This document shows, in pieces, positions 38,554-42,841 of a stretch of 64,000 nt of DNA; the stretch's first letter is position 1; every line of letters starts with the position of its first letter. Position numbers and translations under genes: made by a program. The notes beneath the pieces were generated by a model. It was not told the origin of the DNA. It worked only from the letters and a program-made list of their open reading frames with translations, and searched no databases. The DNA comes from Byssothecium circinans (taxonomy: Eukaryota; Ascomycota; Dothideomycetes; Pleosporales; Massarinaceae): positions 412,951 to 476,950 of the forward strand of contig ML976979.1 in the NCBI GenBank assembly GCA_010015675.1, read 5' to 3'.

Positions 38554-39958
38554 CTATTCGATGAATGCATAAATTTCGCGTTCTCCGTTCGCCGCCCGTT
38601 TCTTGCTGAGCCATGCTTTTGCAGATTTCCAAGAGGTGGGTATTCGATTTTCTTTAAGAAAAAACCCGGCGCTATCGCAGTCAGGGGCATCCAGGTCCGG
38701 GCCCGTTGCCAGCCGTAATTTGTTGATGTCCCGAATGAGATCTTGTTTGAGGGTACCTTTGACAAAGGTTTCTAGTTTCTGATAAAAGATCTCTCCGGGG
38801 TCGTCGGGATGAAGTTCATATTCTTCTTCGGACCTCTTGCCAATGAAGGTTATGTAGATTTCTTGTGACGGTTCAGTATGCTGGGGAATGCTTGTTGGAA
38901 TCTGTGGTGAGGTGCCGTAGAGAGGTCCATTGCTTCCGCGCGGTTGATCGAGGGGTATTGATCCGATACTGCTTCTAGAGGTCTTCCGTCCCATGATGTC
39001 CAGTTCTTCTGAAGCCCCTGACTGTCTTCGTGGTGCCGTAACTATGCCAGATCTGCCGTGCATAGATTGTTTCTCGGTCACATCAGTGACGGTAGATCTT
39101 CCCAATGTGGACTCTCTTAAAGCGCGCTGCTGCAGGACAAGGTCCGGATTGCAGATATGGGGTTTTTTAGGTGGTACTGCAGGTCTTTGACTGTTGAAAG
39201 AGCTTCCACGAGAGTGAGGTCGCTCATTGCCGTAAATATGCGGATCTAATGAATTCTTAGAGCGTTGGGGAATTGAGAGTGGGGAAAGACGTACTCCCAC
39301 TGAAAGAAACGGGGCGTTCCTGGACATCACAATCCCCAAAGACAATTTCAGCATCTGTTCCCGGGATTGCCTCCACCACATAAAAGATGTTACTCAGAGG
39401 CTTTCCGAATTTCAAGTCTTTGTCACTCGAAGCCCAGTCAAGTGATGTCCAACCGATACTAATCAAGGGTCGTCCATTACATTTAACCTTCTTGCGACCA
39501 GGGATCTGATTCATTGAATTGTTTAAATGCTCACGCACAAGCTTGGTTTGGACAAGGTTATCTGATTGAGGTAGATGTGCTGCGTCGGCCGTTGTCGCGC
39601 ATGCAGGTACTCCACTTGGTGCGATCCAGAGTACTTGTGCCTCGTCTCCGTTGCCCAATGAACTGGGATCTGTCGATAGGGATGATAGATGCTGAGATTG
39701 CGACTTGTATGAAGAACTCCTGACACGCGATGACTGAGACATGGTATCGTCTTCGGAACCAAGGCTTGAACTATGCGCCATGACTTCGTGGTAGTCTTGT
39801 TCATTCACTTGGCATCTCTTTTGAAGCATCCCCTTTGCGTCACGAACGGCCAGATACTCGACCACCCAGCTCTCGTGCTTCCGAATCAACACCCTAGCTG
39901 CTTTCAGATTTTCCGGATCTAGAGTACCTGTATTGTGGTGTTCCTGATAGGAAGTCAT
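38554..39958 (-). CDS. Unrecognised 451-aa protein with a degenerate retropepsin-like segment (candidate cluster gene C)
   Basis: Exons are 39958-39295 and 39245-38554; the 49-nt phase-1 intron (gtacgt...cattag) keeps frame. The N-terminal 50 residues form a charged helix, followed by a Ser-rich linker. Residues about 140-220 contain SDNLVQTKLVREHL, GRPLISIGWTSLDW and FYVVEAIPGTDAEIVFGDC, an order and spacing like a retropepsin fold (helix after the active site, flap region, FxVV...D-x-x-hG strand). No Asp-Thr/Ser-Gly is visible before it. A disordered Arg/Ser/Pro linker separates this from a compact C-terminal domain (EIYITFIGKRSEEEYEL to REIYAFIE) that I do not recognise. It is in tandem with gene B, 696 bp downstream of it. 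Confidence 0.7.
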
Positions 39959-40654
39959 TTGCGCCAGCTAGCCTCGTCGTCTCGGGTTTCACAGTGGGGG
40001 CGCACGAACTAGGCGGAGCCAATGAGCGCAGTACTCAACAAGGAGTGGAGCGCGACCGCCATGGTAATAGAATTGTGAGTTGGAAGTGCAACGTTGAGAA
40101 AGAGCAGAAGTTTGAGGTCGTCTCTGCGCTGCCTGGTGTCGCAAGGCAGTGAAACGAGTTGCAGATAGAGCTAGCCTGGCAACCTGCGAATCAGGGCTGG
40201 TGCTCTTGACCGGTCAACCGGACTGAGCTCGAGCGTGCATGTAGCGAAAGTCGGAGCGGGGTAGGAGGGAATGGCTTTTCGTAAAGTCGTCAGTGGCCAT
40301 TGCCCTATCGCCTAGACGCACAGCACTGCACGCCAGTCGTGGCCAACGGTAGGGCCGAGTAAAAGCCATCAGGATAATGCGAGGCCTGTAACAGTGGGAC
40401 AGCGGAACAGGCACTGGCCATAGAGGCTTCGATCTGAGGCCTGAAGATGCACTGCTGCTGTGCTTCGTGGATCCGCATGGACCATCAGTTGCTGGTAGGG
40501 CTGAAGACGACTACAAGACGAGGGCGTCCGAGCATTTAGAAACAAAAGAATTATTCTAGCCTCGATGTATAAAAATCCGCGTTGTTGCCCTACCCTGGCG
40601 ATTTGAGCTGACTGATATTTCTATGCGCACAAGCCGCAAGTCCAGGGATCCAAT
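39959..40654. other. Intergenic region between candidate cluster genes B and C
   Basis: Holds the 3' flank of gene B and the promoter of gene C. No gene or repeat is seen. Confidence 0.55.
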
Positions 40655-41393
40655 CTAGAAAATGGCTCCATGTTCCTTTCCAGCGAATTCCGCTCCACAG
40701 AGTATATCGCATGGAAGACTTGATGTTTTGATGACATGAAAATGATGCGTACAAGACGCTTGTGGGCAATCAAGCTCAACTACCATACCGGTAGAGACTA
40801 ATGCCTTTCCTTCATACCTGGCGAATTTTTCCCTTTCGCGTTTTCTCGTATGAAGCGCGAACTTCCTCACCGTGCGCCTAGAGATCCAGTTACTTTTAAT
40901 CTCAAAGCATATCACCACATCATTTGTCTTTCCAGAATTTTGACCGGCAAAGGACAGAAATTGCACTCCGCGATCTTGTGCTAGCCGGGGTGTTTGCGGC
41001 CTCGTCTGCCGCTTATTAGGAAAGTCAGAGTGACTAGACGAGTAACAAAGCTTACAATAGTCTCCTCGACTTCAGATATTCTCGAAATAGGATTCGCTGC
41101 GATAGTTGTAGACAGCTGAGACCAAGCTTGCGCTTGGTTCATCCTGCCCAGAAAGAAATAATTGCTTTTCCATCTCAGCGCGGCTGGGTAGTAAGGGATG
41201 CTCAATGGGTCACATACTGAGTTTGGATCAGCTTTGTTCCGAAATTGTTTCCAGGAGCGTTGTTCTGGAATCCATATTCGGCCACACGGTTCTTCTCGAC
41301 AGACGTCTTGCTCCTCTGAGCTCCCTGCTCGACAACTTTATCCGAAAACATCTCGGCCACAGCGCGCGAATTGCCGAACTTCGCAAGATCCAT
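40655..41393 (-). CDS. 204-aa protein with N-terminal amyloid-like motif and retropepsin-like module (candidate cluster gene B)
   Basis: Exons are 41393-41218, 41143-41056 and 41005-40655. The introns are 74 nt (gtatgt...ggcag) and 50 nt (gtaagc, ctgac/ctaat branch, ggcag), and all joins are in frame. Residues 32-45 read VEKNRVAEYGFQNN, followed by APGNN, and match the first C-terminal repeat of the divergent neighbour (gene A) position for position. Residues 60-110 are Gln/Ala/Ser-rich. The C-terminal ~90 residues have IKSNWISRRTVRKF, ARYEGKALVSTGMVVEL and HHFHVIKTSSLPCDILCGAEF, resembling a retropepsin fold, with FEIKS where Asp-Thr-Gly would be expected, so probably inactive. An N-terminal motif shared with an adjacent effector is how nwd2 couples to HET-S; a receptor or regulator role is inferred. 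Confidence 0.7.
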
Positions 41394-41845
41394 CTTGCGT
41401 GTAGCGAACTATAAGCGGGATGAGTCTAATATGATGCCATGCGGGCTATGTAGGGAAATAATCTAGGCGATATGAACCCTTTTAATCCCGGTTTCCTTTT
41501 TTCGGCTCCACTGAAGCCATTGGCTTCCTTCGCGTTTGGTGCTTCTTCCATGCATATCGTAAGCAGCTATCACGAGCAAACCTCCAATAGGGTGTTGAGC
41601 TTCGCCACCATCAACAGGAAGTTGTAACAACACCCCGGATTTCCCCGCGCCATGTGATTGCGCCTACGCTGACGTGGACTCAGCTGTTTCATGATTGAGC
41701 CATACGTGCGATATCATAAAGCGGGGAAGACACCGGTTGATAAGTCCATTCTTCAGCAAGCCCGACATCTCCAGGTGTTCTTTCATACACCTCCTTGCGC
41801 ATCAAACAGGTTTCGACCATTGGCACCATTCTCGACCATAGAATC
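41394..41845. promoter_or_regulatory. 452-bp bidirectional promoter between cluster genes B and A
   Basis: The two genes that share the amyloid-like motif are transcribed away from each other from this short region, which suggests joint expression. No specific site is recognised. Confidence 0.5.
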
Positions 41846-42841
41846 ATGGTATGAGCTCCCAACCAAAGACTACTGACTACAATCCTAACCTCGAACTCAG
41901 GCTGAGGCAATGGGAGCCGGAGCCGCCGTGATTCAGCTCTTGGAGGCCGCCATCTCCGTCTTCAAGCATATCAACAAGGCCTACAAGCAGGGCAAAAATC
42001 TCGCAAACCTCCTCCGCCAGTACGAGATCGAACTCAAGGAAATCAGAGACCTCGCCGTCCGCGTCTCAACCGAGGAGTCGCTAAAGGAAACCGATGTCTC
42101 GAAGCAATTGACCAAACTCAAGGCCTGCGCCGACCGGCTCTGCAAATTTCTCCCGAAACTTGACGCCAAAGACCAAAGCGCCTTGCGGACGTTCGTGCAA
42201 CAATTACTGCGGGGCCAAAAAGATATGAAGACGCTGGATGATATCATGAAACAGTTGGACCATGCGAAGGATGACCTGGATCGTAGCATATCGCTGCATC
42301 ATCTCAGCATCACGCGCAAGATCCACACTGCCGTTGAGGGAATGCCCAAGCAGAAGCGCAGACCCACTGGCTTCAGTCTGCCTGCACGCGCGAAGACTAC
42401 TAGTGAACTTCTCCTCCCACCGTGCGCCAATGACAACAATAGCTGACTGGGTGCTTAGCGATGTCGAGCGATAGTTCAAGTTCATCGACAGAGACCGACG
42501 ACAACGACACCCCCACTGAAAGTTCCTCGTCAGACACCGAGTACGAAACGTCAAGCATGAACGAGTCACGGTCTCCAAGGGTCCTAATAGTAGAAGAGAA
42601 TGAAGTGACGAAGGGGGGTTTCCAATCTAACAACAATTGCGGAGATGAGGATATGCTTGCCGACACGAACGTCACGATCAGGAAGAACAAATGTGTTGGC
42701 GGGTTCCAGAATAATTATTCGAATAAGAAGGCGGACCTGGAGGGACTTTATAACCTTCAGTTGGCGAAGCAGAGAGAACAAATGTTGTTTTATAAAGATT
42801 TCGGGTTTTCTCTGAAGGAGATCCTGAAGGTATTGACATGA
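41846..42841 (+). CDS. HET-S-like helical domain protein with two C-terminal amyloid-like repeats, 295 aa (candidate cluster gene A)
   Basis: Exons are 41846-41848 (the ATG alone), 41901-42402 and 42459-42841. Introns are gtatga...cctaac...ctcag (52 nt) and gtgaac...gctgac...cttag (56 nt). Splicing gives M-AEAMGAGAAVIQLLEA. Residues 5-145 are all-helical, like the helical N-terminal domains of fungal STAND/HeLo-like death proteins (LRQYEIELKEIRDLAVRV, LTKLKACADRLCKFL, IMKQLDHAKDDLDRSI). Residues 170-207 are a Ser/Asp/Glu linker. Repeat 1 is at 209-228 (VLIVEENEVTKGGFQSNNN) and repeat 2 at 239-257 (VTIRKNKCVGGFQNNYSN), 28 residues apart, resembling HET-s-related amyloid motifs (V-x-x-N...G...Q-x-N). 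A charged helix ends the protein. Length equals that of HET-S. A membrane-acting cell-death effector is inferred. Confidence 0.75.

Follow-up and report, generated by a model that had tools for sequence, protein, structure and literature searches.

The stretch of DNA analysed here (the window; 64 kb) corresponds to positions 412951-476950 of contig C3 in a 48.4-Mb genome of 109 contigs, which to judge by introns and genes is probably that of a filamentous fungus. It contains two neighbouring genes, referred to as A and B, that are divergently oriented (head-to-head) and that have in common an upstream region of 452 bp between their starts (41394..41845). Gene A, on the plus strand, is modelled as three exons encoding a 295-residue product that reads M / AEAMGAGAAV.... 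Exon 1 (41846..41848) consists of the ATG alone and is followed by a phase-0 intron of 52 nt (GTATGA..CAG), as in the model of a paralogue found on contig C18; an in-frame ATG at 41910 offers an alternative start, and the bare-ATG exon is a soft point of the model. Exon 2 (41901..42402) encodes a predicted helical SesA/HeLo-like domain, assigned from the model and from homology to the paralogue, and is separated by a second intron of 56 nt (GTGAAC..TAG) from exon 3 (42459..42841), which encodes a Ser/Thr/Asp/Glu-rich linker, two copies of a motif, a tail and the stop.

Gene B, on the minus strand, is modelled as three exons encoding 204 residues, the exons having been joined by hand from the sequence and lists of splice sites. 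Exon 1 (41218..41393) encodes the N-terminus, with a further copy of the motif. Exon 2 (41056..41143) is tentative and relies on a reading of the sequence and its splice sites; likewise tentative is exon 3 (40655..41005), an open frame of 116 residues assigned to no known family. The two introns, of 74 and 50 nt, have GT-AG ends and the frame is kept across all three exons; left unspliced, the frame of exon 1 meets a stop a few codons past the modelled junction. When codon use was considered, exons 2 and 3 of gene A (scores of 0.159 and 0.111) and exons 1 and 2 of gene B (0.148 and 0.042) each gave the best score of their six frames, yet none of the exons of either gene exceeded the level under which 95% of open non-coding stretches fall, the score of A exon 2 lying within the range of such stretches and that of B exon 1 falling short of a 95% level of 0.202. 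The score of B exon 3 (-0.161) was the lowest of its six frames, such that coding is not supported there.

A scan of the window placed the first copy of the motif in A (R1; VEENEVTKGGFQSN) at 42590..42631 and the second (R2; IRKNKCVGGFQNN) at 42677..42715, both on the plus strand, and a single, r0-like copy (VEKNRVAEYGFQNN) at 41259..41300 on the minus strand, corresponding to residues 32-45 of B. The motif is 13-14 residues long, is rich in charged residues, several of which are found in the B copy, and can be described by the pattern h-x-x-N-x-V/C...G-F-Q-N/S-N over about 14 residues. R1 and the B copy are identical at 8 of 14 positions without a gap, and R2 has KN and GFQNN in common with the B copy. 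Both these resemblances and the divergent arrangement, with its 452 bp between starts, had been claimed in the earlier note; the window scan confirmed the former and the gene models the latter. Because five of the eight residues identical in R1 and the B copy are encoded by different codons and DNA identity is 23/42, the likeness does not reflect a recent DNA copy. Within A, where the two copies follow the Ser/Thr/acid-rich linker and are spaced by 15 residues, E-E-N-E of R1 lies opposite R-K-N-K of R2, bringing three opposite charges into register (E/R, E/K and E/K); by simple arithmetic, three charged columns of seven would coincide by chance once in 35 cases. The tail that follows R2 (42716-42841, plus strand) ends in ...REQMLFYKDFGFSLKEILKVLT, with what looks like the amphipathic character of a MerR- or UBA-like helix. 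In the HRAM effectors described in PMC4518210, repeat two has just a short stretch of sequence after it.

Whether such resemblance exceeds chance was considered at several levels. In a six-frame reading of the 64-kb window, GFQ[NS]N appears at three positions, each of them in the A/B pair. Across the 48.4 Mb, a 15-base version of the pattern was found at 13 places, two of them in the pair; R1 goes uncounted here since the pattern takes only Asn or AGY-Ser codons. A control in which the pattern was read backwards gave 11 forward and 12 reverse places, meaning that the five-mer as such is not enriched genome-wide. The upstream N-x-V/C was, by eye, absent from the other 11 genomic places. When R1 was scanned against 632,582 six-frame positions, taken from the window plus 77 other loci with some overlap among them, the B copy scored 42 and the runner-up 26; a fit to the tail of these scores gave an expectation of 0.022 such scores over all positions, or about 0.002 when allowing for the length of B and the 14-mers of A. 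An ungapped scan with R2 did not return B among its top nine positions, as R2 is one residue shorter. A statistic seeking one 6- or 7-mer with two occurrences in A and one in B was not reached in any of 1000 shuffles. Whole-protein Smith-Waterman alignment of A and B gave a score of 45, matched by 136 of 5000 shuffles (122 of 5000 when domains were shuffled apart), and the score of the C-terminal part of A against the N-terminal part of B was reached by 15 of 5000, and by 3 of 1000 in a repeat test. A protein search of the genome with the A repeats or the B N-terminus returned no motif carrier besides the pair, and a regular expression for the motif found no match in 30 NACHT loci of the at least 64 listed, these loci reaching 1500 bases upstream of the NACHT match and so possibly missing some N-termini. 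In the literature, GFQNN, GGFQNN or GGFQSN was matched in three papers, none of them with a title on amyloid signalling, in a search that covers running text and not sequences printed in figures. Judged from these scans and shuffles, the motif common to A and B is taken to be real and beyond chance.

As for the helical domain of A, a direct comparison with SesA (PF17107) gave 12 bits against a cut-off of 26.3, and A did not appear among the 15 SesA places that a search of the genome listed at E <= 1. A search of the genome with A did, however, find the protein encoded on C18 (E 9.3e-7), with the domains of the two aligning with a score of 128, reached by none of 2000 shuffles, the highest of which scored 66. 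On this alignment, the homology of the A helical domain to the C18 protein is firm. The domain exon of the C18 paralogue gave matches to SesA (E 0.0019; 18.8 bits) and MLKL_N (E 0.0089), as did the full model (E 0.0049 and 0.042, respectively), all under the cut-offs. The C18 effector gene (C18:501689-502231; a 268-residue model) is oriented head-to-head with a NACHT/NPHP3_N gene (C18:502975) that encodes a short N-terminus followed by the NACHT/NPHP3_N domain, the two making up the locus C18:500312-503731. In the models of both A and the C18 paralogue, an intron in phase 0 follows the start and one in phase 1 marks the border between domain and tail. As the protein to which its domain is homologous is weakly SesA/MLKL_N-like and encoded beside a NACHT gene, A is probably an effector of the HeLo/SesA type, with its own C-terminal motif pair. 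The earlier note had read a helical N-terminal domain in A, and a HeLo/SesA-like nature of this domain gains support through the paralogue.

Relatives of A and B were sought in their own genome and in viral contigs, the latter yielding none. A third protein with a relative of the domain of A and the C18 protein was found on C27 (C27:259800-264300; E 3.9e-6 to the C18 protein) and has a valine/lysine-rich tail; no receptor gene was noticed near it when the frames of the 4.5 kb around it were read by eye. Alignment of the A tail with that of the C18 protein scored 42, a value reached by 7 of 1000 shuffles, this being one of eight pairs tried; for the A and C27 tails and for the C18 and C27 tails, the counts were 39 and 349 of 1000, respectively. 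In the tail of the C18 effector, NLVDR is found twice, along with an LQGN stretch; by alignment of the kind used for A and B, the sharing of a motif between this effector and its NLR was not significant (323 of 2000 shuffles). A weak match to residues 118-228 of A lies at C6:934066-934392 (E 0.0495), within an open frame of 608 residues. The A tail matched no PDB sequence at E <= 10, and AlphaFold2 modelling of A exon 2 without an alignment yielded five helices with a mean pLDDT of 52.3, too low for use.

Protein B matched no Pfam family, and its exon 3 matched nothing in Pfam or the PDB at E <= 10, a single NCBIfam match (E 0.18) being meaningless. A search of the genome with the whole of B returned only its own exons. 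In the 13 frames scanned on the minus strand, close to B and downstream of it, no Pfam match exceeded the cut-off, and neither NACHT nor repeat domains were matched. NACHT was matched at no fewer than 64 places in the genome at E <= 0.01, those listed on C3 lying at about 18, 80 and 1272 kb, as compared to 454 kb for the pair; among the matches listed with this profile and threshold, the nearest is thus some 370 kb away. By these searches, B is not a receptor or an NLR. With exon 3 having neither family nor codon support, B may be a 204-residue protein of unassigned fold or a shorter motif protein.

Exon 3 of B has what we take to be a degenerate retropepsin look. As a candidate identity this did not hold: neither Pfam nor the PDB gave a sequence match, a poor structural model gave no fold match of any meaning, and a 4-row profile did not set the exon apart from shuffles, 93 of 467 of which equalled or exceeded its score. 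The AlphaFold2 model in question, built without an alignment, had a mean pLDDT of 41.6, too low for use, and Foldseek searches with this model and with that of A exon 2 gave best E values of 0.72 and 1.2, respectively, which carry no meaning. Adjoining B is a further gene, C (38554-39967 of the window, minus strand), that belongs to no Pfam family and includes the stretch FYVVEAIPGTDAEIVFG, presumably protease-like in look. A relation between B exon 3 and gene C was likewise rejected: in local alignment with three different gap costs, shuffles often did as well (1022, 646 and 328 of 3000), and a global alignment with hand-chosen ends (14 of 3000) was set aside as post hoc. Elsewhere in the genome, retroelement-like protease frames containing stop codons were seen (L071, L073, L076 and L079-L085), the stops being such as repeat-induced mutation would leave.

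The pair was next set against the known families of amyloid motifs. Like HRAM systems, it has two copies in the C-terminus of one protein and one in the N-terminus of the adjacent gene product, and the 15-residue loop between R1 and R2 lies within the HRAM range of 6-18. HRAM repeats carry opposite charges at equal positions (available text of PMC4518210), as do R1 and R2. The 21-residue HRAM pattern (G at 19, hydrophobic residues at 5, 8, 10, 16 and 18, with Q allowed at 16 and 18, K/R at 15 and N/Q/H at 3; seven points) did not fit, with windows on R2, R1 and the B copy scoring 4, 3 and 3 of 7. The best score in A was matched by 763 of 2000 shuffles, and the best in B (5 of 7; 234 of 2000) was located before the motif. 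This test is itself weak, as the C18 effector and NLR likewise did not stand out (375 and 549 of 2000). PF11558 matched neither A nor B and, genome-wide, gave one place, on C2, under the cut-off (E 0.0889); in the part of PMC4518210 available, that profile is said to match just 38 of 155 HRAM proteins. Profiles of amyloid motifs in general matched neither protein at E <= 10, including that of the sigma motif (about 40 residues; PF17106). The PP core NxGxQxGxN (PMC9815663, in part) was by eye absent from the three copies, which have mainly G-x-Q in common with it, nor did the PUASM pattern FxGxGxQxxGxGxF (same source) fit by eye, with no PNP_UDP match at E <= 10. The B copy contains several charges, whereas receptor-side HRAM motifs have fewer on average (PMC4518210, as far as available). 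Its position, residues 32-45, lies inside the range of 20-49 given for PUASM motifs in receptors, those of HRAM and PP being mostly at 5-9 (PMC9815663, available text). The motif thus appears to act like those of the HRAM, PP, PUASM and sigma families but, by profile or pattern, belongs to none, and the membership in the HRAM, PP or sigma families raised by the earlier note is not supported. Nor does B match the adjacent NLR that the note had described for het-S/nwd2, B being no NLR and no NACHT gene having been found nearby; among HRAM effectors, the NLR partner is adjacent in 98 of 155 (PMC4518210, in part), making such an arrangement common, not invariable.

Compared to HET-S/NWD2 of Podospora anserina (HRAM1) and HELLF/FNT1 (HRAM5), the pair is alike in comprising a small effector with a helical N-terminal domain and two C-terminal copies, oppositely charged, and an adjacent gene with one N-terminal copy. 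It is unlike them in that the motif is 13-14 residues long (21 in HRAM), has GFQ[NS]N and does not follow the HRAM glycine/hydrophobic pattern, and in that the partner of A is not an NLR. For HET-S, a non-NLR trigger is known in the [Het-s] prion, but this is formed by the product of another allele of the effector gene. The C18 effector/NACHT pair, containing the closest relative of A found, is also head-to-head and has the same modelled intron phases, but its partner is a NACHT receptor and motif sharing within it falls short of significance. HELLP/SBP/PNT1 (PP) and SESA/SESB/HET-eN (sigma), as described in the available part of PMC5485727, resemble A/B in having a SesA/HeLo-like effector in a cluster with a common motif; they differ in that A and B contain neither the PP core nor a sigma profile match. 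PP and sigma motifs are found as single copies in their HeLo-type effectors (PMC4518210, available text). In KAI8417719-KAI8417720, a SesA-domain/NLR pair with the pattern NxxxGxQYxxxGxGDQNxVSxxxxQxN (PMC12261475, in part), a SesA-associated protein is likewise encoded by a gene next to one with a common N-rich motif outside the named families, although the motif is a different one and the partner is a probable NLR. Fungal gasdermin/protease pairs, too, place a pore-former beside the gene of an activator that is often not an NLR (PMC12881547, available text); unlike these, A/B includes no gasdermin, and the protease nature of B was not borne out.

The gene order, the motif beyond chance, its two-plus-one layout and the homology of the A domain to the C18 protein are observed. 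Together they are compatible with a two-gene signalling module, in outline of the HET-S kind, with A as the effector and B as a templating trigger, a reading that we hold at about even chances. A, a predicted HeLo/SesA-like effector of the MLKL four-helix-bundle type, would be inactive until its C-terminal copies change fold. A signal would lead to assembly of B, whose single N-terminal copy would template the two copies in A, and the helical domain so freed would turn on the cell's own membrane and kill the cell, as in HET-S/NWD2. The cross-beta fold, the templating, the membrane attack and the B-to-A direction, with B as trigger, are what we infer. Of the earlier note's claim of a prion-type signalling pair, what finds support is the layout and the domain of A, the layout and the opposing charges of R1 and R2 being as in HET-S-type systems; a known motif family and an NLR partner do not. 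The absence of a recognisable sensor domain from B exon 3 counts against a module of this kind.

A rather unlikely alternative is that the motif mediates homotypic binding or co-assembly that is not amyloid in nature, with B being a regulator or inhibitor that holds A and not a trigger. The frequency of charged residues in the motif, the failure of the HRAM glycine/hydrophobic spacing and the lack of any match to the amyloid profiles searched would be in keeping with this, but the two-plus-one layout and the complementary charges of R1 and R2 are as in known amyloid pairs (PMC4518210, available text). Another explanation concerns B. If exon 1 is coding and the rest is not, B could be the remaining 5' part of a receptor gene since lost, or a small protein of some 60 residues that has only the motif, leaving A an orphan or set off by a small prion-like protein in the manner of HET-S/HET-s. 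The codon score of exon 3, its lack of a family and the stop that soon follows unspliced exon 1 all point this way; nonetheless, introns with usual ends connect the three exons in frame, and the 13 minus-strand frames scanned retain no NACHT, repeat-domain or other Pfam match over the cut-off, as a receptor remnant might. To this explanation, too, we assign a low probability.

It is improbable that A and B are unrelated genes that resemble each other by chance or through low complexity. The motif match was what the initial reading had looked for, the whole-protein score is reached by 136 of 5000 shuffles and homologues with the motif were not seen elsewhere in the genome. Against this, the threefold motif was not reproduced in 1000 shuffles, B is a clear outlier among the 632,582 positions scanned and the other 11 genomic GFQ[NS]N places do not have the upstream part.

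PMC12261475 lists five NLR-associated motif families in fungi. A literature search, conducted mostly outside subscription journals, returned no such motif or gene pair. Fungal amyloid signalling as described runs from NLR to effector, the [Het-s] prion being the other known trigger. The sequence evidence presented here suggests, but does not prove, that two genes with a common motif form a trigger-and-executioner pair of the fungal prion-signalling type. That they further represent an additional family of amyloid motifs, one linking a SesA/HeLo-like effector to a small non-NLR trigger without a receptor ATPase, is a tentative proposal, more doubtful than not. A two-gene pair this small would be amenable to direct test in laboratory fungi. 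If the proposal is true, the motif would lie outside the known families and its partner would be a separate protein other than an NLR, so that the code of such signalling and the range of its triggers would both be broadened.
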